From Zavarzinia marina (GTDB taxonomy: Bacteria; Pseudomonadota; Alphaproteobacteria; Zavarziniales; Zavarziniaceae): a stretch of 64,000 nt of DNA. The notes under the pieces were generated by a model. The model worked only from the letters and a program-made list of their open reading frames with translations, was not told the DNA's origin and did not search any database. The stretch lies in NCBI RefSeq assembly GCF_021568905.1, contig NZ_JAKGSB010000001.1:620001-684000 (forward strand), given 5' to 3'. Shown in pieces: positions 5,314-64,000 of the stretch (positions within the stretch are counted from its first letter, which is position 1; each line of letters opens with the position of its first letter). A program made the translations under genes and the position numbers.

Positions 5314-6609
5314 TCAGCCGCGGGCCTCGACCGGCACGAAGGTCCGGCGGTCGGCACCCGTGTAGAGCTGGCGGGGACGGCCGATCTTCTGGGAGGGATC
5401 GGCGATCATTTCGGCCCATTGGGCGATCCAGCCGACGGTCCGCGCCAGGGCGAACAGCGGCGTGAACATGGTGGTCGGGAAGCCCATGGCCCGCAGGATG
5501 ATGCCCGAATAGAAGTCCACGTTCGGGTAGAGCTTCTTCTCGATGAAATATTCGTCCGACAGGGCGATCTTCTCGAGCTCCATGGCGACCTGGAACAGCG
5601 GGTCGTTGTGCACGCCCAACTCCTCGAGGACGGCCTTGGCGGTCTGCTGCATCACCTTGGCGCGCGGGTCGTAGTTCTTGTAGACCCGGTGGCCGAAGCC
5701 CATCAGGCGGAACGGATCGTTCTTGTCCTTGGCCTTGGCGATATACTCGGGAATGCGGTCGGGGGTGCCGACCTGCTGCAGCATGTTCAGCGCCGCCTCG
5801 TTCGCGCCGCCGTGCGCCGGGCCCCACAGGCAGGCGATGCCGGCCGCGATGCAGGCGAAGGGATTGGCGCCCGACGAACCGGCGAGACGCACGGTCGAGG
5901 TCGAGGCGTTCTGCTCGTGATCCGCATGCAGGATGAAGATCTTGTCCAGCGCATTGGCCAGCGTGGGCGAGACCTTGTAGGGCTCGCACGGCACGCCGAA
6001 GGTCATGTAGAGGAAGTTCGAGCAGTAATCGAGGTCGTTGCGCGGATACATGAACGGCTGGCCCACCGAATATTTGTAGGCCATGGCGATGATCGTCGGC
6101 ATCTTGGCGATCAGGCGGTGCGAGGCGACGACGCGCTGATGCGGATCGCTGATGTCGGTCGAGTCGTGATAGAAGGCCGACAGCGCGCCGACGACGCCGC
6201 AGATCACGGCCATCGGATGCGCATCGCGGCGGAAGCCGCGGAAGAACATCGAAAGCTGCTCGTGCACCATCGTGTGATAGGTGATGTTCTTCAGGAACTG
6301 GCTCTTCTGCCCCGCCGTCGGCAGTTCGCCGTTCAGCAGCAGGTAGCAGACTTCCGGGAAGTCGCTCTGTTCCGCCAGCTCGTCGATCGAATAGCCGCGA
6401 TAGAGCAGGACGCCCTCGTCGCCGTCGATATAGGTGATCTTGGATTCGCAGGATGCCGTCGACGTGAAGCCGGGGTCATAGGTGAAATGACCGGTTTCGG
6501 CATAGAGCTTGCGGATGTCGATGACCTTCGGGCCCACGGACCCTTCCATCAAAGGCAACGATACTTTCTTGCCCGCATCCTCGAGAACCACAGAGGTCTG
6601 TTCGGCCAT
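5314..6609 (-). CDS. gltA: Citrate synthase (type II)
   Basis: GltA condenses oxaloacetate and acetyl-CoA to citrate at the entry of the TCA cycle. The 431-residue length and the extra N-terminal domain ([43 protein letters not shown]) match the hexameric, NADH-regulated bacterial type. The catalytic histidines are in [14 protein letters not shown] and [14 protein letters not shown], and the aspartate is in NVDFYSG. Its leader contains a 14-base direct repeat (6623-6652). The gene stands alone between gltX and a small downstream frame. Confidence 0.97.
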
Positions 6610-6854
6610 CTCGCTGCACTCCGTCTAACTTCGCGTGAGTCTAACTTCGCGTAAGATTGGGGATTTCGGCGCTCGGGACCGGCGTGAGGGGAGTGGTCCC
6701 GAGTCCAGGGAAGTGATGTTCCACGGTCAGTATAATGCCAAGCAATTCGGCACGAACAGGGCCGTGATGGTTGCACTGCATCTTTTCCGGACAAGGCGCC
6801 GGGGCAAGCCTGACATTGGTGCAATGCCTCGCCATGGCGCCATGTCCCACCGCG
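6610..6854. other. Non-coding stretch between gltX and gltA
   Basis: About 245 bases separate the two minus-strand genes. It contains the gltA leader repeat and presumably the gltA promoter. I see no convincing coding frame and no hairpin strong enough to call a terminator for gltX. Confidence 0.5.
6623..6652 (-). repeat. Direct repeat in the gltA leader
   Basis: Two identical 14-base copies, reading ACGCGAAGTTAGAC on the minus strand, lie at 6623-6636 and 6639-6652 with a 2-base spacer. The nearer copy ends 13 bases before the gltA start codon and runs into the presumed ribosome-binding region (GGAG). Spacing and position would suit a regulator-binding site or a translational control element; no known motif is recognised. 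Confidence 0.6.
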
Positions 6855-8270
6855 TCACCGTCCGAGCACGTCGGCGATGCGGCCGAGGGCTTCGTCCCGG
6901 CCCAGCGCCTCCGCCACCTCGAAGATCGGCGGCGAGACGGTGGAACCGCTGAGCGCGGCCCTGAGCGGCTGGGCATAGTCGCCGAGCTTGTCGCCCGTCG
7001 CCTCCGCGAGGCCACGGGCGGCACCCTCGATCTGCGGCGCCGAGAAACTGTCCAGGTCGGCGATCGCGCCGCGCAGTGCCGCCAGGCGATCGCGCCCCGG
7101 CGCACCCGCAGCCAACATCTTCTCCGCCTTGGGGTCAAGGGCGAGGGGGCGTTGCGCGGCCAGGAATTTCGACGAATCAACCAGTTGAACGAGTGTCTTC
7201 GCACGGGACTTCAGGCCGTCCATGCAAACCTCGATGCGCCTGATCACATCGTCCGACAGCGCATGGCCGAGATCCTTCACCAGTTCGGCGGCGACGAGAC
7301 CGGTCAGGCGGTGGTTGTCCGCCTCGCGCAGATAGTGGCCGTTCAGATTGTCGAGCTTGGCGAAATCGAAGCGGGCGGGGGAGCGGCCGATGCTCTCCAC
7401 CCCGAACCACTCGATCGCCTGGGCCGTCGAGATGATCTCGTCGTCGCCGTGGCTCCAGCCGAGCCGGAGCAGATAGTTGCGCATGGCTTCCGGCAGATAG
7501 CCGAGGTCGCGATAGGCATCGACGCCGAGGGCGCCGTGGCGCTTCGACAGTTTGGCACCGTCCGGCCCATGGATCAGCGGGATATGGGCGAAGGCGGGGA
7601 TCTCCCAGCCGAGGGCCATATAGAGCTGGGACTGGCGCGCCGAATTGGTCAGATGGTCGTCGCCCCGGATGACATGGGTGATCCCCATGTCGTGATCGTC
7701 CACCACCACCGACAGCATATAGGTCGGCGTGCCGTCGGAGCGCAGCAGGATCATGTCGTCCAGTTCGGTATTGGAAAAACGGACCTCGCCCTGGACCAGG
7801 TCCTGCACCACCGTCTCGCCCTCGCGCGGCGATTTCAGGCGCACGGCCGGCGAAACGCCCGGCGGCGCTTCCGCCGGATCGCGGTCGCGCCAATAGCCGT
7901 TGTAGCGCGGCGGCAGGCCCTTGGCCCGTGCCTCCTCGCGCATCGCCGTCAGTTCCTCGGGCGTGCAATAGCAGTAATAGGCCTTGCCCTCGTCGATCAG
8001 GCGGCGGGCGGCGGCGGCATGGAGTGCCGCGCGGGAGAACTGGAACACCACGTCGCCGTCCCAGTCGAGCCCCAGCCAGCGCATGCCTTCGAAGATCTTC
8101 TCGATCGCATCCTCGGTCGACCGCTGGCGGTCCGTATCCTCGATGCGGAGCCGGAAGGTGCCGCCGAAGTGGCGGGCGAACAGCCAGTTGAACAGGGCGG
8201 TGCGGGCGCCTCCGATATGCAGATAGCCGGTGGGCGAGGGGGCGAAGCGGGTGACGACGGGAGAGGACAT
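6855..8270 (-). CDS. gltX: Glutamate--tRNA ligase
   Basis: A 471-residue class I aminoacyl-tRNA synthetase that charges tRNA with glutamate. The HIGH-type signature is [19 protein letters not shown] at the N-terminus and the KMSKS-type signature is KLSKRHG. The zinc-site region has YCYCTPEE. Many alphaproteobacteria have two GltX proteins and form Gln-tRNA through GatCAB, so this copy may be either the discriminating or non-discriminating type; the sequence alone does not settle that. It is divergent from comEC. Confidence 0.95.
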
Positions 8271-55573: not shown

Positions 55574-55906
55574 TCAGGCCGCGCGATTGTCGACGGAGAC
55601 GCCGGCGGACGGCAGCGCCCCGGGCCGGGTCCATTCGGGCGGCGCCCAGATGTGCTTCAGGCGCAGCCACAGGGGGCCCGGGCGGAGCACGTCGCGCATC
55701 ATGTCCGCGAATTCATGCAGGTTCAGGGTCAGGATGTTGTGGCTGCGCACTTGGCGCACGATGCCGTAGTCCACCTTCTCCCCCTCGGGCTCGAAGGTGC
55801 CGAACAGACGGTCGAACAGGATCAGCACGCCGCCGTAGTTCTTGTCGATATATTGGGGATTGCGGCCGTGATGGGCCCGGTGATGCGACGGCGTGACGAA
55901 GATGGG
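55574..55906 (-). pseudogene. Fatty acid hydroxylase / sterol desaturase family, C-terminal fragment
   Basis: The last 110 codons of a di-iron membrane hydroxylase. The histidine cluster PSHHRAHHGRNP is followed by QYIDKNYGGVLILFDRLFGTFEPE and a normal C-terminal region (RPGPLWLRLKHIW). The reading frame runs straight into the left inverted repeat of the Tn3-family element at 55908, so the 5' part and its membrane helices are gone. A short GTG-started frame of 84 residues remains but would lack the metal site. Confidence 0.85.
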
Positions 55907-55907
55907 G

Positions 55908-55946
55908 TGACGACACGAAAGTGATCAGATTGTCCGGTTCGTGAGA
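55908..55946 (+). repeat. Left terminal inverted repeat of the Tn3-family element
   Basis: It begins TGACGACACGAAAGTGATCA and lies 12 bases outside the end of tnpA. It interrupts the hydroxylase fragment. It is preceded by GGGG, the usual Tn3 terminal bases, which are not present at the other end. Confidence 0.85.
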
Positions 55947-55958
55947 ACGGACCAGCAA

Positions 55959-58931
55959 CTATGCTGCCAGCAGCGACTGCGGCCGACGGAGAGGTCGCAA
56001 TCCATCCATCGGAATTGAATCGTCGCCCCAGACGTAGTCCCCGGTCAGGCCGACATGCTCCCAGCCGAGCGGCGCGACGTGGCGCGCGAGTTCCGGCCGC
56101 ACGTCGGCGCCGCGGCCGCCGAGATCTTCCATGGCAGCCTGAAGGTACCGGGTGTTCCACAGGATGACCGCCGACACGAGCAGATTCAATCCCGAGGCCC
56201 GGTAGGCTTGGTTCTCGAAACTGCGGTCGCGCATCTCGCCGAGCCGGTTGAAAAAGATGGCCCGCGCCAGTGCATTGCGCGCCTCGCCCTTGTTGAGCCC
56301 GGCGTTGGCTCGTCGGCGCAGCACCGGATCGCGCAGCCAGTCCAAGGTGAACATCGTGCGCTCGAGGCGGCCGAACTCGCGCAGTGCCAGAGCCAGGCCG
56401 TTTTGCCGGGGATAGGCAGCTAAGCGCCTCAACATGGCAGAAGCGGTCACCGTGCCGACGCGGATCGAGGTGGCCAGCCGCAGCAACTCTTCCCAGTGGG
56501 CAGCCAAGTGATCGAGATCGATCACACCGCCGATCAGGGGCCGGAGAGCCGGAGGCGCCTCGTCTCCCGGAAACAGATACAGGCGGCGGTCCTTGAGGTC
56601 CCGGATGCGTGGGGCGAAGCGGAAGCCCAGCAGATGGCACAGCCCGAACACATGGTCGGAGACGCCGCCGGTGTCAGTATAGTGCTCCTCGATGGACAGG
56701 CCGGTCTGGTGGTAAAGCAGGCCATCGAGAACGTGCGGCGCCTCGCTTGCCGTCGCCGCGATCACCTTGGTGTGGAACGGACCGTACTGGTCTGAGACAT
56801 GGGTGTAGAAGGCGACGCCCGGCTCGTTGCCGTGCCGGGCGTTGACGTCACCGACCGCCTCGCCGCGGCCGCCGGCACGATAGAACTGGCCGTCCGAGGA
56901 AGAGGTGCTGCCGTCGCCCCAGATGGCGGCCAGCGGCAGGGCTCGATGGACGTCGATGATTTTGGCGAGTGCGGCAGCGTAGGTCTCTTCACGCACGTGC
57001 CAGTCATGCATCCAGGCAAGCTGCCGCATCGAAACGCCGCGGCAGGCCTCCGCCATCCGCGTCAGCCCAAGATTGATGCCGTCGGCGAGAATGGCCGTGA
57101 GCAGCGCCGCCCGATCCTCCGGCGGCCTGCCGCTCCGCTGGTGGGTAAAGCACGCGCTGAAGCCGACCCAGCTATCGACCTCCAGCAACAGGTCGGTGAT
57201 CTTGACCCGGGGCAGCGTCTGGTAGGCGCTGTGGCCGAGCTCATCAGCCGCCTCGGGAGTACGGTCGCGGATGGGGGAGACCTTCAGTTCGCCCGTTGAC
57301 AGATCGACGCTCTCCAGCTTTCCGGCCGCGGCCAGGCCGGCAACCTCCGCAATCCGCTCGCGCAGGGCCTGCCGCCGCGCGGGCAGGTAGACGGTTCTTT
57401 CCCTGCTGACCGCGACCGGCAGGGCGTTCTCGTCGCGCAGCGCGTCGAAAGTCGGCCTCGGCACCAGGCAGGACTCGAAGTCGCGAAATTGGCGACTTCC
57501 ATCAACCCATATGTCGCCGGCGCGTAGCCGGTCGCGCAGCTCCGAAAGGGCGCAAATTTCGTAAGCCTTCCTATCGATCACGCCGCCAGGCATGACGAGC
57601 CGACGCCAGGAGCGACGGACGAACCCAATCGGCGCCTTGGGCGGCAGGCTGCGCTTGCCCGAGTCGTGCATGGCCCGGAGCACCTCGAGCGCCCGCAGTA
57701 GCGACGCAATGGCGGGGCCACCCTTGAAAACGAATGCGCCCAGCAAAGTCGGGGCAAAGGCACGGACAGTGGCGTACCGCCCCACCAGTTCGACCCGAGG
57801 GTCCATCGCGTCCGGCCGCGCCAAAGCCTCAACATCGGCGACGCTGGCGACGAACTTGTACCATCCAACACCCTTGTCCAGCGCCTCGAAAGGATTCCGG
57901 CCGGCCTCGCGTGCGTCGATCACAGCGCGGCAAGCAGCGATGATTGTCTGAAGCTGGCTCCTGGTCTCCTTCATCGTTTTGAGTGTCTTCTCCGACGTGC
58001 GGTTTTCTGCTCGGCGGCCGAGCGAGACCATGAGCTTATCGAACATGGCGAGTGCTGCGTCGGTCAACGCTGTCTCCATGCGGATCGCCACCGCGGCCAG
58101 CAGCGCATCCCGGCGTACAGGGGAGAGATCGCGGAGGTGCTGCACCGTCATCCGCACGCCCTCGGCGGCAAGCCGCTCGAACGCGGCATCAGGGACCTGG
58201 TCTTGGACGACGCGGTCGACGGCAAGGCCGCGCAGCGCTTCGAGGCGGTCAACGACCGCGACGAGATTGCGCGGTGCCGGTGCCTTTGGTGCTGAACGGA
58301 GCCAAGCCAGCATGGCAACGCCGGCATCGGCCCACGGCTCGAGTAGCGCCGCGACCCGGCCACCGCCGTCCCGTCCGAGCGCTTGCACGACAATGCGATA
58401 AATGATCCGCTCGGCCCGGCCTCGCGCCTGGTGCAGGATCAGCTCCAACACGGCCGCGGACGGCAGCAGGATGCGTCGCTGCCGCAGTTCGTTGACCAGC
58501 GCGGTCGCAAGCGCCATTGGATCCCGGTTCACCTGGGCGATGGACAACAGCCACGATGCCAGCGCCCCGAACGCCGCGCGATCGAAGCTCCGGTAGCCTG
58601 TCTGCTCCATGAGATCGGCCATCTGCTCGCGCCGGGTCTGGCCCCGGCGTCGATAGTCGGCATAATCATCGGCTTCGGCGCCAACCTGGCGAGCAACAAA
58701 GGCCAGCAAGGCCGACGGCGGGATTTCGTCAGGGTCGGGCATGCGACCGGGATAGCGCAGGTAGCAGAGCAGGACAGCATAACCAAGACGGTTGCGCGCG
58801 GTGCGCTTGACCGCGACAATGTCCAAATCGTCACGGTCGAACGTATAGTGGCGGATCAGTTCGCGCTCATCAGACGGAACAGCCAGGAAGTGTGCCCACT
58901 GGCCTTCGGTCAGGAGTCGCCGTCGCGCCAT
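55959..58931 (-). CDS. tnpA: Tn3-family transposase
   Basis: A 990-residue transposase, complete. The N-terminal DUF4158 region starts MARRRLLTEGQWAHFLAVPS. The catalytic DDE domain shows aspartates in WGDGSTSSSDGQFY and HVSDQYGPFHTKVI, with a glutamate in LREFGRLERTMFTLDW. GGAGAGG precedes the ATG at 58931; an ATG ten codons upstream is possible. No frameshift or stop is present, so it may still be active. It lies at the left end of the element and points toward it. Confidence 0.95.
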   Translation of the reverse strand: MARRRLLTEGQWAHFLAVPSDERELIRHYTFDRDDLDIVAVKRTARNRLGYAVLLCYLRYPGRMPDPDEIPPSALLAFVARQVGAEADDYADYRRRGQTRREQMADLMEQTGYRSFDRAAFGALASWLLSIAQVNRDPMALATALVNELRQRRILLPSAAVLELILHQARGRAERIIYRIVVQALGRDGGGRVAALLEPWADAGVAMLAWLRSAPKAPAPRNLVAVVDRLEALRGLAVDRVVQDQVPDAAFERLAAEGVRMTVQHLRDLSPVRRDALLAAVAIRMETALTDAALAMFDKLMVSLGRRAENRTSEKTLKTMKETRSQLQTIIAACRAVIDAREAGRNPFEALDKGVGWYKFVASVADVEALARPDAMDPRVELVGRYATVRAFAPTLLGAFVFKGGPAIASLLRALEVLRAMHDSGKRSLPPKAPIGFVRRSWRRLVMPGGVIDRKAYEICALSELRDRLRAGDIWVDGSRQFRDFESCLVPRPTFDALRDENALPVAVSRERTVYLPARRQALRERIAEVAGLAAAGKLESVDLSTGELKVSPIRDRTPEAADELGHSAYQTLPRVKITDLLLEVDSWVGFSACFTHQRSGRPPEDRAALLTAILADGINLGLTRMAEACRGVSMRQLAWMHDWHVREETYAAALAKIIDVHRALPLAAIWGDGSTSSSDGQFYRAGGRGEAVGDVNARHGNEPGVAFYTHVSDQYGPFHTKVIAATASEAPHVLDGLLYHQTGLSIEEHYTDTGGVSDHVFGLCHLLGFRFAPRIRDLKDRRLYLFPGDEAPPALRPLIGGVIDLDHLAAHWEELLRLATSIRVGTVTASAMLRRLAAYPRQNGLALALREFGRLERTMFTLDWLRDPVLRRRANAGLNKGEARNALARAIFFNRLGEMRDRSFENQAYRASGLNLLVSAVILWNTRYLQAAMEDLGGRGADVRPELARHVAPLGWEHVGLTGDYVWGDDSIPMDGLRPLRRPQSLLAA

Positions 58932-59028
58932 CGCCCTCTCCAATCCCGTCAAGGAAATCATAGCGAAAGTGGCGGGTGGCGGCGGGGCAGATCGCTACAT
59001 GTTCGCGTATAGTCGAAATTCAGGCTAA

Positions 59029-59058
59029 AGCTCACCCGCGCTGCCAGCGCGGTGAGCT
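59029..59058 (-). terminator. Strong hairpin between the peptide gene and tnpA
   Basis: AGCTCACC and GTGAGCT arms with CGCGCT/AGCGCG extension form about 13 paired bases with one bulged C around a 3-base loop. It lies just 15 bases past the stop of the small minus-strand gene and is followed on that strand by TTT. It would serve as a terminator or attenuator before tnpA. Confidence 0.6.
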
Positions 59059-59073
59059 ATTCCCGAATCAGTT

Positions 59074-59178
59074 TCACCGGTCGCCGAGCGACCGCCAAGC
59101 AAACCAAACAACAAAGAGTACGATGAGAGTGAGAGGCCAGCCCGGGCCACTCTCTATGAAATGGATCGTGATATCCAT
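59074..59178 (-). CDS. Tiny single-helix membrane peptide, copy 1
   Basis: A 34-residue frame starting at 59178 behind an AGGA site. The peptide has a short amphipathic start (MDITIHFIESGPG), one hydrophobic helix (WPLTLIVLFVVWFAW) and a basic/polar end (RSLGDR). Longer in-frame starts exist at 59220 and 59337. A second gene at 62280-62420 encodes nearly the same helix (GPGWPLTLIVL, VVW, AW), so the frame is conserved at protein level and probably real. Size and layout recall type I toxins, but this is only a resemblance. Confidence 0.6.
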   Translation of the reverse strand: MDITIHFIESGPGWPLTLIVLFVVWFAWRSLGDR

Positions 59179-59337
59179 TAGATCCTGCAGCGTTAGCGCA
59201 CCTGCAACTACGGTGGTCATCGAGAAACGTCCGTTGGTAAGCACGGCGCCGCCGCTTATGTGCCAAATTGGCGGCATTTTCATCCAATTTGGCATGATTT
59301 TCAAGGCTGACGTTATGCGACTGTTGAGGTCGCGCAT

Positions 59338-59592
59338 AGGCCGAAAATTGCTCCCATAAATGTCGGCGGGGTCAGCGCCACCCGCCGGGCGGATGAACTG
59401 ATGCGGTCCATGCGCGTGACCCGCACCTCTTAGTGTCTTTAGTGTCTGATCCGAAATTAAGTTGAGTGATATCAGCCGGTTAGCTTGACAGCGTTGGCCT
59501 GTCGCTGATTCTGGGGTTTCGCCAAAACCGACCAGGAATCAGCGACGTGGGCCGATACTGCCCGCGCCATTCATGCGCGAACCGAACTGGCT
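59338..59592. other. Gap with the left end of an IS remnant
   Basis: No gene is seen. It holds the IS-type terminal sequence TGTCTGATCCGAAA at 59443-59456 and an 11-base inverted repeat at 59501-59511 and 59535-59545 (GTCGCTGATTC / GAATCAGCGAC) just before the transposase. Confidence 0.55.
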
Positions 59593-60345
59593 TTGCCAAG
59601 CGATTTGACCGATGCGGAATGGGCGGTGCTCGAACCACTTCTGCCGCCCGCTTCGCCAGTGGGACGTCCTCGCAAATGGTCGATGCGGCGGATTGTCGAG
59701 GCGATCCTGTTCTTGCTGCGGGGTGGTTTGCCATGGCGGATGCTGCCACCCTGCTTTCCGCCGGTCTCGACCGTCCGGCGTTGGTTCTACCTGTGGCGCG
59801 ACAGCGGCCTGTGGCTGACGCTCAACCGCACCCTGCTCATGGCCTCGCGCGAGGCGCGGCCGGGAAGCCTTCCCCAGCGCCGGGGTGATCGACAAGCAGA
59901 CCGTGGAAACCACCGAATCCGGCGGCCCTCGGGGTTATGACGCGGGCAAGAAGATCAAGGGACGCAAACGCCATATCCTCACTGACACGCAAGGAAATCT
60001 CGTCCACGCCGTGATCCACACCGCCGACATCCAGGATCGCGATGGCGCGCCGCTGGTTTTGGGCAAGATCGCCAAGCGCTTCCCCTGGCTCCGGCACATC
60101 TTCGCCGACGGCGGCTATGCTGGTGACAAGCTCAGGGACGCGCTGCGCCCTATCGGAAAATGGACCGTCGAGATCAACAAGCGTTCAGATGCCGTCAAAG
60201 GCTTCAAGGTCCTGCCTCGCCACTGGTGGTCGAGCGCACCCTAGCATGGCTCAACCGAAACCGGCGAAATCGGGCGCCACCCTGGACCGCAAAGGCACTA
60301 GGTCGACGGAGAAACGGCCGGCCACAAGCTCTCTACACGCTCTAA
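59443..60345 (+). mobile_element. IS5-family insertion sequence remnant
   Basis: The left end is taken at TGTCTGATCCGAAA; the two-frame transposase follows. No matching right end occurs before the Tn3-type inverted repeat at 60341, so the right end has been lost. The family is judged from the transposase sequence (IS427/IS1031-like). Confidence 0.7.
59593..60345 (+). pseudogene. IS5-family transposase, frameshifted
   Basis: The first frame from 59593 reads LPSDLTDAEWAVLEPLLPP, GRPRKWSMRRIVEAILFLLRGG and LPWRMLPP, the usual N-terminal half. Near 59860 the coding sense moves to the frame ending at 60244 (SAGVIDKQTVETTESGG, GYDAGKKIKGRKRHILTDT, ADGGYAG). Such a two-frame layout can be programmed in this group. 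A further one-base loss near 60226 moves the conserved VVERTLAWLNRNRR into a third frame that ends at 60345. That last change and the altered C-terminus make it non-functional. Confidence 0.82.
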
Positions 60346-60379
60346 CGAACCGGACGATCTGATCACTTCCGTGTCGTCA
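60341..60379 (-). repeat. Right terminal inverted repeat of the Tn3-family element
   Basis: Reads TGACGACACGGAAGTGATCA on the minus strand and matches the left end at 36 of 39 positions. It abuts the last codons of the IS5-family remnant. Confidence 0.85.
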
Positions 60380-60614
60380 TAAGCACGAACCACCCAAACC
60401 GCGTGACGGGTGGGATCAGATGGAGCCAATTGTAGATCCATGCTGCGTCGCCACAGGTGACAACAATGTCAGTTTCAAATACCGTACCAAAACGGTGCAA
60501 ACTGTAGCCGATTTGGCAATTCGTGCGCCAGCCCGCTCACTCACGGGCGGTCGCCCTGAAGAGGGTGTCAGACGAGAGTGTTCTATTTTAAGTTTTGCAT
60601 GAGGAACTTGCAAT
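60380..60614. other. Upstream region of the barrel-protein gene
   Basis: About 235 bases with no supported gene. An inverted repeat ACCGT-N6-ACGGT near 60480-60496 and AT-rich patches near 60580 could belong to the promoter of the gene at 60615, whose ribosome site GAGGAA is at 60601-60606. Confidence 0.4.
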
Positions 60615-62153
60615 ATGCGAAAAAGACCAACCGTTAAGGCCGTTATCTTCGGCACAACAGCGGTCGCCACTCTCGCGGCGGCGGCAAGCGCCACCGCGCA
60701 GGACGCCATTCAGGTTTCTGCATCGCAGTTTGGTTATACCAACCGCGCGGTTGCTGAAACCAACGTCAAGCTCGATATATTCGGCGGTGGCGATGAAAGT
60801 GGCGGTACTTATGGTGGCGCCCCCAGCCTGACGGTACCCCTCGGCGACAAGCTCGGCCTGCAGATCGACGGCGTGGCCGGCGTGACTGGGGACGAGACCG
60901 GCTTCGCCGGCGGCGCCGCCCAGCTATTCTACCGTGACCCACAGAAGTTCCTGATCGGCGTCGCCGGTGGCGGCGTCTATGTCGACAGCGTGGCGCAATA
61001 TGGCGTCGCAGCGATCGCCGAATATTATCTCGACAATGTCACCCTCGAAGGCTTGGTCGGCTACGAGACCGGCGACGTGATCGATGGAGTCTACGGTCGT
61101 GCGGGCCTGTCGGTCTATGCCAATCCCAATCTCCGCCTCGGCGGTGGCGTCAGCTACTCGCGCAGCAACGATCTGGGTGGCGACATCCAGGTCGAAGCAC
61201 TGCTGACCGACGTCCCAGGCATGGCCCTGTTTGCCACCGGCATCTTCGACCAGCAGGGCGCCATGGGCCTAGGTGGTGTTCGCTTCTACATGAATTCCGG
61301 CACCAATCTACTGACCACCGACCGCACCAAGCAGCAGTCGGCGCCAACCCTAATCGACATGCAGCGCCACATGAACAGGCCGAACTTCCTGTTCGCCGCC
61401 GGGTCTGGCTTCGGTATCCGCCAGATCAGCCTGACAGGCGACGCCACGTCGAATCCGCCGCCGCCGCCGCCGCCGCCCGAGCAGTGCAAGGATCACTCCC
61501 TGAAATGCAAGCTTCACGGCCTAGTCGACCGCCTGGTCGCTCACGAATATCGCGAGCATAGCGCCCTGACGACGCTGACGGGGTGGGTCGACGACCAGGT
61601 CAACGCCCGGGTCGACAAAGAGAATAGCGCCTTGGAGGCGCGGGCAGATCGGCTCCACGGCCTGATCGATGGCCTGGGCAACAAGTATCCCATCCTGGCG
61701 CCGCTGACGGGTCCGCTCGACGCTCTGATCAACGCCCGGGTCACTCATGAGTATCGCGAAAACAGTGCTCTGACAGCCCTGTCAGGGCGAATCGACGAAC
61801 GGGTCAACACCCGGGTCGACAAAGAGAATAGTGCCTTGGCGGCGCTGGCAAATCGGCTCCACAGCCTGATCGATGGCTTGGGCAATCGCAAGCATCGCCC
61901 CCTGGTGGCGCTGACGGGGTGGATCGACGACCAGGTCAACGCCCGGGTCGACAAAGAGAATAGCGCCTTGGAGGCGCGGGCAGATCGGCTCCACGGCCTG
62001 ATCGATGGCCTGGGCAACAAGTATCCCATCCTGACGCCGCTGACGGGTCCGCTCGACGCCCTGATCGACGCCCGGGTCACTCATGAGTATCGCGAAAACA
62101 GTGCTCTGACAGCCCTGTCAGGGCGAATCGACGAACGGGTCAACACTCGATAG
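60615..62153 (+). CDS. Predicted outer-membrane beta-barrel protein with C-terminal repeat domain
   Basis: A 512-residue protein. Residues 1 to about 29 form a signal peptide (KAVIFGTTAVATLAAAASATA). Residues about 30-275 are Gly-rich with alternating hydrophobic strands (GVAGGGVYVDSVAQYGVAAI, LRLGGGVSYSRSN, MGLGGVRFYMNSG), suggesting an outer-membrane barrel. Eight prolines (281-288) and a Cys pair (291, 298) lead to a charged, helical repeat domain. There a 112-residue unit starting LTGW(V/I)DDQVNARVDKE occurs at 321-432 and again, cut short, at 433-512. Each unit contains three related sub-motifs. No family is recognised. It sits between IS remnants, so recent arrival is likely. Confidence 0.75.
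   Translation: MRKRPTVKAVIFGTTAVATLAAAASATAQDAIQVSASQFGYTNRAVAETNVKLDIFGGGDESGGTYGGAPSLTVPLGDKLGLQIDGVAGVTGDETGFAGGAAQLFYRDPQKFLIGVAGGGVYVDSVAQYGVAAIAEYYLDNVTLEGLVGYETGDVIDGVYGRAGLSVYANPNLRLGGGVSYSRSNDLGGDIQVEALLTDVPGMALFATGIFDQQGAMGLGGVRFYMNSGTNLLTTDRTKQQSAPTLIDMQRHMNRPNFLFAAGSGFGIRQISLTGDATSNPPPPPPPPEQCKDHSLKCKLHGLVDRLVAHEYREHSALTTLTGWVDDQVNARVDKENSALEARADRLHGLIDGLGNKYPILAPLTGPLDALINARVTHEYRENSALTALSGRIDERVNTRVDKENSALAALANRLHSLIDGLGNRKHRPLVALTGWIDDQVNARVDKENSALEARADRLHGLIDGLGNKYPILTPLTGPLDALIDARVTHEYRENSALTALSGRIDERVNTR
61575..62150 (+). repeat. 336-base direct repeat inside the barrel-protein gene
   Basis: Copy 1 spans about 61575-61910 and copy 2 spans 61911-62150 (240 bases, ended by the stop). 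Long stretches are identical at DNA level, showing recent duplication. The period is exactly 112 codons, so expansion keeps the frame. Confidence 0.85.
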
Positions 62154-62279
62154 GGCCTTCGTACCTAGGTGATATATTCTTGGGTGAGGTATGCCACACC
62201 CAAGAATATTCAAGATCTGACAGGCGTGATATCCGCTTTAGAATCTTTAAAGCGGCATTGTTACCGATGGATCTTCATT

Positions 62280-62420
62280 ATGCTTTTCTTAACTTCATTC
62301 CCAATAACCATACAATATACTATAGATACAATAATTTATTTCATAGAAATCGGTCCTGGCTGGCCCCTCACTCTCATCGTACTATACGTTGTTTGGCTTG
62401 CTTGGGTATCATTCCGCTGA
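62280..62420 (+). CDS. Tiny single-helix membrane peptide, copy 2
   Basis: A 46-residue frame ending with IIYFIEIGPG, WPLTLIVLYVVWLAW and SFR. The last 30 residues match copy 1 (59074-59178, minus strand). The shared DNA is roughly 80 percent identical over about 75 bases. The ATG used by copy 1 is ATA here, so the start must differ; the frame is open back to 62169. The region is AT-rich compared with its surroundings, suggesting foreign origin. Confidence 0.5.
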   Translation: MLFLTSFPITIQYTIDTIIYFIEIGPGWPLTLIVLYVVWLAWVSFR

Positions 62421-62529
62421 AATCTCCCTATCCAACTAATACCAGTTCCACGAATGGCTGACTCGTGAGGGATTGAACGAACCCACTGTGGCGGGATTTT
62501 GGAGAAGCTCCCCGTGACCTGACCCCCCC

Positions 62530-62885
62530 GTGCTTCATCCAGCGGGAAGCGGAGACCCGGCCCCGGCATCGCGAGGACGATCCCGCCGCCCAGAAGGCCC
62601 TCAAAAAAAGCTCCGCGCCCGGGTGAAAAGCATCGCCCGGCGCAAGGCTGCCGGTCGCAAGGTCGAGATCTGGTTCCAGGATGAAGCCCGCGCCGGCCGG
62701 GTATGGTTCGAGCGAGGGCAACGGCCGAGGGGGGCCCGCGACATGCGCCACAAGGCAGCCTGGATCTTCGGCGCCGTCTGCCCGGCCCGGGATACCGGCG
62801 TCGCCCTCGTCCTGCCGGTGGCGACGACCGAGGCGATGTAGGCCTTCCTCGACGAACTGGCCCTGGCCGTTCCCGCAGACCGATC
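62530..62885 (+). pseudogene. IS630-family transposase fragment
   Basis: The middle of an IS630 transposase is readable: KVEIWFQDEARAG, RPRGARDMRHKAAWIFGAVCPARD and VALVLPVATTEAM. Upstream, the frame changes at a run of seven A (near 62604-62610), with AAQKALKK in the preceding frame. An in-frame TAG at 62838 interrupts the continuation AFLDELALAV. Both ends of the gene are missing, so it is inactive. Confidence 0.8.
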
Positions 62886-62909
62886 ACTCACTTTATTTCG
62901 GATCAGACA
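62882..62909 (-). repeat. IS-type terminal sequence in inverse orientation to 59443
   Basis: GATCACTCA followed by CTTTATTTCGGATCAGACA matches, on the other strand, the sequence at 59443-59475 apart from small indels. It seems to be the orphan right end of an IS of the same kind. Confidence 0.6.
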
Positions 62910-63292
62910 TTAAGTTGTCGGAGCCAGAGTTGAGCGAAGACATCGACTGGCGCATAATTGCCTTCTATTAATAGTCGATAGAATTAAACGGATAGAACCA
63001 GCACGACTTAAAAAATGGGCGGATTATCGCCATTTCTTCCAGACGCTTTGGTTTGATTTTTATCGCTGTGCGCGCGCGGCCGGAATCACCCCGCCCTGGC
63101 GTCAGACCGCAATGACACGCAGCGACTTGCGGAACCATGCGTCGACCCCGCGGCAATCTCTGGCCGAGCTTCGACATGATCTGCTTACAAGATGTGTTGA
63201 TAGCGTTGCGTTGAGTGCATAGTGTAGCTATGCGCAAAGCATCACTACACATTGCCCCCTGAGCCTTTCCTGCCCTCACGAGAGACCCCATC
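62910..63292. other. Gap before the oxidoreductase gene
   Basis: About 380 bases in which no gene is supported. The base composition changes from AT-rich on the left to GC-rich near 63080. Presumably the promoter of the gene at 63293 lies in 63180-63280, but no clear elements are called. Confidence 0.4.
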
Positions 63293-64000
63293 ATGACAGC
63301 CCGCACGGCAACCCTGCATCCTGTATTGATTTCCTCAGGGCCTCGGCCGAGCGCTAGGCGTTGGTCCTTAATCGTTCGGCCTGATCAGCTTCACCACCGA
63401 GCCCAGGTGAAGCGCATCGTTAAGGAAACCGACGAGGCGGTGTCGGTCGTGCTCGCACCGGTCGACGGGATACCCAAAGACCTGCGGGCCGGTCAGTTTC
63501 TCACCCTGATCGCGCAGATCGATGGCCAGGCCGTGAAGCGGGCGTATTCCCTCAGCGAGCTTCCCAACGAAGGGACGATGACGATCACCAGCAAGCGGGT
63601 CGAGGGTGGGGTGATGTCCACCTATCTGAACACGCGCCTAAGAGAGGGTGCTTGGCTTCAGTTCGCCGGCCCCAGCGGCGACTTCGTTTTGCCGGCACGG
63701 GTACCGACACACTATGTGTTCGCCGCAGCGGGCTCGGGCATCACCCCGATCATGGCCATGGTTGAGCAATTGCTGGAGCATGAAAACAACCACGTACCCA
63801 TTGCTGTTTTTTATGGCAATCGTCGCGAGCAAGACATCCTTTTCCGCGAGCGACTGGATGCATGGGCGAACCGACATGAAAACCTGACCATCCACTATGT
63901 ACTCAGCCAACCAGCACAGGACTGGAACGGTCGCCGAGGCCGCATCAGCGCTGAAGAATTGCGTGGTGCTGCGCCCGGAACCGGAGCCATCTATTTTCTC
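63293..64000 (+). CDS. Ferredoxin-NAD(P) reductase-type oxidoreductase, 5' part
   Basis: From the ATG at 63293 the frame is open for 236 codons to the window edge. The FAD-binding domain shows RAGQFLTLIA and VKRAYSLSELP (RxYS motif). The NAD-binding domain shows FAAAGSGITPIMAMVEQLL and VFYGNRREQDILFRERL. This is the reductase module of PaaE, KshB and ring-hydroxylating oxygenase reductases; a C-terminal 2Fe-2S domain would be expected beyond the window. The partner oxygenase is unknown. Codon choice is less GC-biased than in the housekeeping genes. Confidence 0.85.
   Translation, partial: MTARTATLHPVLISSGPRPSARRWSLIVRPDQLHHRAQVKRIVKETDEAVSVVLAPVDGIPKDLRAGQFLTLIAQIDGQAVKRAYSLSELPNEGTMTITSKRVEGGVMSTYLNTRLREGAWLQFAGPSGDFVLPARVPTHYVFAAAGSGITPIMAMVEQLLEHENNHVPIAVFYGNRREQDILFRERLDAWANRHENLTIHYVLSQPAQDWNGRRGRISAEELRGAAPGTGAIYFL

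Follow-up and report, generated by a model that had tools for sequence, protein, structure and literature searches.

In the window, the 64,000-nucleotide stretch of Zavarzinia marina DNA analysed here, an intact reading frame on the forward strand (60615-62153, 512 codons) codes for a 512-residue protein that is best read, with a probability of about one half, as a surface stalk similar to those of the inverse autotransporters and lying outside the known IAT_beta family. BAM would insert the N-terminal 12-stranded barrel into the outer membrane, the conserved linker that follows strand 12 may run back up through the barrel pore, and the C-terminal repeat domain would be displayed outside the cell as a stalk, whose length would change through the gain or loss of helical repeats of about 22 residues. 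The barrel, the linker, the paralogue family, the homology of the repeats and the variation in tail length come out of the computation itself; surface exposure of the tail is an inference. In favour of this reading we count the type Ve domain order, the alignment of intimin and invasin over the linker, the conservation of the linker followed by a hypervariable tail, the variation in tail length among syntenic orthologues, the lack of a peptidoglycan-binding domain, the collagen-tailed relatives, the synteny with a Tad locus in five Zavarzinia species and a barrel dN/dS of 0.17. Against it we count the lack of an IAT_beta match and of an Ig-like or lectin-like passenger, and the best fold match, KdgM, which is a plain porin.

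The signal peptide, the eight prolines, the two cysteines and the charged repeat domain described in the first-pass annotation are all found in this frame (Table 1). The signal sequence reads MRKRPTVK...AAASATAQ^D, and its final AQ is kept in most paralogues. The prolines occupy residues 281-288, followed by cysteines at 291 and 298; the type of hinge differs across the family (Gly, Thr-Pro, Asp or Pro), and the close cysteine pair is retained in the nearest paralogues.

Table 1. Features of the gene and of its upstream flank, in window coordinates.
Feature	Position	Strand	Basis
Tn3-family element, 42-bp inverted ends 55908-55949 / 60338-60379	55908..60379		inverted match; context, outside the protein
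Sec-type signal peptide, residues 1-28	60615..60698	+	sequence: n-region MRKRP, hydrophobic core, ATAQ^D
12-stranded outer-membrane beta barrel (predicted), residues 50-226	60762..61292	+	AF2 models
Post-barrel linker, conserved, residues 244-279, PTLIDMQRHMNRPNF..GFGIRQISL	61344..61451	+	conservation, intimin/invasin alignment
Pro8 hinge and Cys291/Cys298 pair	61455..61508	+	sequence
Charged repeat domain, nine sub-repeats of 19-25 aa	61554..62150	+	paralogue alignment, homology to paralogue repeats
336-base unit copy 1, 112 aa, from one LTGW to the following one	61575..61910	+	lag-336 DNA match, protein motif positions
336-base unit copy 2, incomplete, 80 aa, closed by TAG	61911..62150	+	lag-336 DNA match

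The 336-base unit is present 1.7 times in the gene, the second copy ending after 80 of 112 residues, at the point where its DNA departs from that of copy 1. At lag 336, 255 of 274 bases are identical, including uninterrupted identity over 110 and over 79 bases (far above chance), in agreement with the earlier description of a duplication with long identical stretches that is cut off by the stop codon. Autocorrelation of the protein peaks at lags 112 and 68. The LTGW, LTGP and LSGR sub-motifs reported before are all present, at residues 321, 364 and 389 and again at 433, 476 and 501 (unit positions 1, 44 and 69), each followed by D-x-x-(I/V)-(N/D)-(A/T)-R-V and then, where the sequence continues, by ENSAL, although that description overlooked two more sub-repeats, of the ENSALEARADRLHGLIDGLGN type. 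Aligned to the paralogues, the 112-residue unit consists of five sub-repeats of 22, 21, 25, 22 and 22 residues with a pattern of roughly x-x-[SGTP]-A-L-x-x-L-[TA]-x-x-[LIV]-[DN]-x-[LV], and the basic repeat is one of about 22 residues, five to the unit; in the window protein the sub-repeats start at residues 314, 336, 357, 382, 404, 426, 448, 469 and 494. The helical character first assigned to this domain is also predicted by the full-length AF2 model, which retains the barrel and runs helices through the repeats, but with low confidence (pLDDT about 40-57).

The Gly-rich strand-forming region, proposed earlier as an outer-membrane barrel, is predicted by AF2 from the barrel alignment as 12 beta strands (mean pLDDT 87.5), with turns of 2-6 residues, acidic top turns and an aromatic girdle at the bottom, and in 11 of the 12 strands the inward face is more conserved than the outward one. 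After the barrel, helices are predicted at 219-225, 231-234 and 241-252 of the mature chain, and the linker that contains them (217-252) is conserved like the strands (2.61 vs 2.59 bits, with 1.81 for the stretch 200-216); the hypervariable tail comes only after this conserved segment. No solved relative was found by sequence in a profile search of PDB chains. By structure, the best match is KdgM (Z 19.9 over 168 residues, rmsd 1.9, residues 24-200), and intimin (Z 17.9 and 17.3) and invasin (Z 17.1 and 17.0) follow in two models. In either model the alignments of intimin and invasin cover 194-202 residues and reach model residue 242-255, whereas those of KdgM, NanC and NalP cover 166-169 residues and end at 198-200; among the matches listed, all but intimin and invasin end by 208, with a single OMPLA chain, ending at 223, as the exception. 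Because an alignment range gives end points only, we infer the threading of the linker through the pore from the models, and AF2 may place any tail inside an empty barrel.

Type Ve proteins are built of an N-terminal 12-stranded barrel and a C-terminal passenger (PMC6555100). The window protein resembles these inverse autotransporters in its N-terminal, here predicted, 12-stranded barrel, in a repetitive C-terminal domain of variable length and perhaps in a post-barrel linker that, in the models, may follow that of intimin and invasin; it differs from them in that their passenger is typically Ig-like or lectin-like and that of the present family is predicted to be helical and either Lys/Arg-free or charged, and in that turns are almost absent. 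No Ig-like or lectin-like domain was matched in Pfam, and IAT_beta (PF11924) gave no match in the window genome at E<=10, with a positive E. coli control. Filing under IAT_beta was rejected, as there is no sequence match, and, since IAT_beta is the sequence family that defines the inverse autotransporters, the proteins are not filed as such. The KdgM/NanC porins share the 12-stranded fold of the predicted model, but have neither a tail nor a conserved post-barrel linker and show about 10% identity; no porin Pfam model matched the protein, and the profile search of PDB chains found no member of their sequence family. OmpA/OprF-type anchors likewise place the barrel first and an extra domain after it, but have 8 strands instead of 12, and the window protein contains no OmpA-family domain, so that an OmpA-like identity was rejected on strand number and domain content.

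The window genome (3.95 Mb) contains seven paralogues, and Zavarzinia species have 4-8 each and the sister genus 2-3, the order being represented by seven genomes only. Outside this bacterial family the barrel is rare: it is matched in 9 of 385 genomes of the class, four of them from outside the family (one of these, at E 1e-4, resembles a FadL-type barrel), and in 6 of 299 genomes of the phylum sample. The chromosomal paralogues nearest to the window protein show 72-74% barrel identity. Across the family the barrel is conserved, and the tail behind the linker is anywhere from about 140 to 1124 residues long. At the syntenic locus next to the Tad genes the tails measure 257-538 residues, at a PPK2-adjacent locus 731-1124 residues (complete members), and at a third locus 142-148 residues, but 503 in one species. 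A barrel joined to a length-variable repeat domain, as first suggested for the window protein, is what these differences between syntenic orthologues show, from 142 to 1124 residues in the family. No Pfam or NCBIfam model matches the window protein at the curated cut-off, in line with the initial statement that no named family has this layout, and neither database assigns the barrel in any family member scanned. Weak repeat matches in Pfam, NCBIfam and PHROG (TetR_C_6, TPR_RNF123, eps_fam and others) lie below the cut-off or cover short stretches and were judged to be matches of composition; HEAT_PBS, above the cut-off in one paralogue over 18 residues only, was likewise discounted.

The tails have an unusual composition. 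After the RQIS motif, Lys and Arg account for 9 of 10,180 residues, vs about 5% of the barrel residues in these proteins, and both are wholly missing from twenty tails, which measure 80 to 1100 residues. This near-absence applies to most paralogue tails (L008-L011, L040-L061). As Arg codons are expected to be frequent in a GC-rich genome, the scarcity looks selected. The tail of the window protein contains 30 Lys and Arg residues together with 33 Asp and Glu, and this charged C-terminal domain taken alone had no match among 288 other alphaproteobacterial genomes. A profile of the repeats of the other members scores it at 39.7 bits (E 2.7e-11; best of 999 shuffles, 8.7 bits), and the charged window repeat is, judged by its sequence, a divergent form of the acidic, Lys/Arg-free repeat of the family.

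In distant barrels from alphaproteobacteria the core of the linker, L-x4-R (often LIxRHRxDDPP), is retained, and the tails are short. Two further proteins consist of an N-terminal coiled coil, a homologous barrel, the linker and a collagen-repeat tail that matches PF01391 (E 9e-22 and 2e-12): one in genome G554 (L130:7445-8995) and the other on a plasmid of Ochrobactrum quorumnocens (L129:1620-3248). They share with the window protein the homologous barrel, the linker core and a repetitive C-terminal domain, and differ in the coiled coil, in a collagen GXY tail in place of helical repeats and in an identity of about 30%. No name for such a barrel-collagen family was found, and a literature search on rhizobia and Brucella relatives gave no description of it. 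As one barrel carries different repeat tails, a role in presenting a tail is suggested.

The main rival, which we consider unlikely, keeps the tail in the periplasm: both barrel ends would be periplasmic, the linker would plug the pore on its lower side, and a periplasmic spacer or scaffold would be formed by the repeats, with a logic like that of OmpA. With an even number of strands, a periplasmic position of both ends is the default, and, since short-tailed relatives keep the linker motif, the linker may be a plug with no role in export. Yet scans of the window protein and of eight paralogues matched no peptidoglycan-binding Pfam domain, the tails vary freely in length between 142 and 1124 residues, relatives carry collagen tails, and there is no known reason why a periplasmic domain should avoid Lys and Arg. 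Envelope spacing, one of the functions first proposed, gained no evidence. The surface stalk may itself be one case of something wider: tentatively, these proteins could form an alphaproteobacterial superfamily of self-displaying barrels, unrelated in sequence to IAT_beta, that use a 12-stranded pore to thread exchangeable passengers (Lys/Arg-free helical, charged or collagen), which would make them a separate type V-like form of surface display with a no-Lys/Arg rule on most helical passengers. With the terms used, no paper on charge in autotransporter passengers was found.

The nearest chromosomal paralogues occupy one syntenic site in five Zavarzinia species, next to a Tad pilus locus, with the paralogue 0.6-0.8 kb upstream of the genes for cpaB/RcpC, the secretin, an AAA/receiver protein and a T2SSE-type ATPase, and a response regulator on its opposite side; in the sister genus (L061) the nearest flanks, RcpC and the regulator, are seen as well. 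Adhesion, another early proposal, is supported by this association, and an attachment role may be deduced from the Tad locus and the collagen-tailed relatives. For phage-receptor variation, proposed with it, no evidence was found, and a barrel with turns of only 2-6 residues has little loop surface with which to act as a receptor. A short-tailed subclade adjoins DUF1329 in nine loci (L012, L013, L057, L064, L065, L067 and L069-L071), with DUF1302 and MMPL also present in several, and these short-tailed barrels are likely an extra part of hydrophobe transport clusters. The existence of Tad-linked and DUF1329/DUF1302/MMPL-linked subclades means that the family may have more than one role, and the second of them suggests a role in transport, which counts against a stalk. 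In Castellaniella, AmeABCD (a set of DUF1302, DUF1329 and RND proteins) has been linked to monoterpene efflux (PMC6394551). With this precedent and a porin, KdgM, as top fold match, the barrel could be the outer-membrane pore of DUF1302/DUF1329/MMPL-type transport of hydrophobic compounds, with hydrophobic tails as periplasmic adaptors and the window gene as an accessory form; this is quite improbable, because the long-tailed paralogues, including those nearest to the window protein, lie outside such clusters, in which AmeA-type DUF1302 proteins already provide an outer-membrane protein.

The window gene lies between a Tn3-family element, which ends 235 bp before it and contains the transposase frame 55959-58961, and IS remnants. 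Inside the element there are also an IS5-like transposase remnant (59593-60244) and a small membrane ORF (FIExGPGWPLTLIVLxVVWxAWxS); the latter occurs on both sides of the gene in opposite orientations (59074-59337, minus strand; 62280-62420, plus strand), a relative of it is found a short way upstream of L040, the sister gene (G001:C2:43261-43356), and only two further copies were found in eight genomes, so that it is possibly a partner or a passenger of the mobile elements. L040 likewise lies in an IS-bearing region; its flanks gave no convincing synteny match to those of the window gene (tblastx scatter, not used). A phage or plasmid origin of the gene was rejected, with no match in phage records or viral contigs and no DNA match in plasmids. 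The GC3 of the window gene is 0.76, vs 0.83-0.90 in the chromosomal paralogues. With its divergent, charged repeat domain, it is an accessory copy carried by a Tn3/IS island.

The only second copy of the gene is on a contig (L122, NZ_JAOZVR010000020.1) binned as a Ferrovibrio MAG, which matches window positions 55904-64000 at 99.84% (8.1 kb) and is either misbinned or recently transferred. There the gene (5920-7458) keeps an intact frame and the same number of units, two, and differs at three bases (window 61698, 61724 and 61731), all in unit 1 and all making it equal to unit 2, through either gene conversion or an effect of short-read assembly. The idea of an expandable repeat fits the tails of syntenic orthologues, which vary in length; for the 336-base unit itself, whose number is equal in these two copies, expansion would be conjecture. 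A decaying copy, a truncated paralogue being lost from a transposon-rich island, would explain the stop codon inside a repeat unit, the lack of the hydrophobic C-terminal tail seen in complete paralogues, the IS-rich surroundings and the lower GC3 of the gene. We regard it as very improbable, given the open frame in the window gene and in L122, and a barrel dN/dS of 0.17 against L040, which indicates that the barrel has been under purifying selection.

If the surface stalk holds, these proteins would constitute a second, separate lineage in which a 12-stranded barrel serves to display a C-terminal passenger, collagen and helical repeats taking each other's place as passengers, and would provide a candidate surface factor at the Zavarzinia Tad pilus locus. 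That about 10,000 passenger residues contain almost no Lys or Arg, set against one natural charged exception, bears directly on the question of whether charge limits passage through or past the outer membrane.
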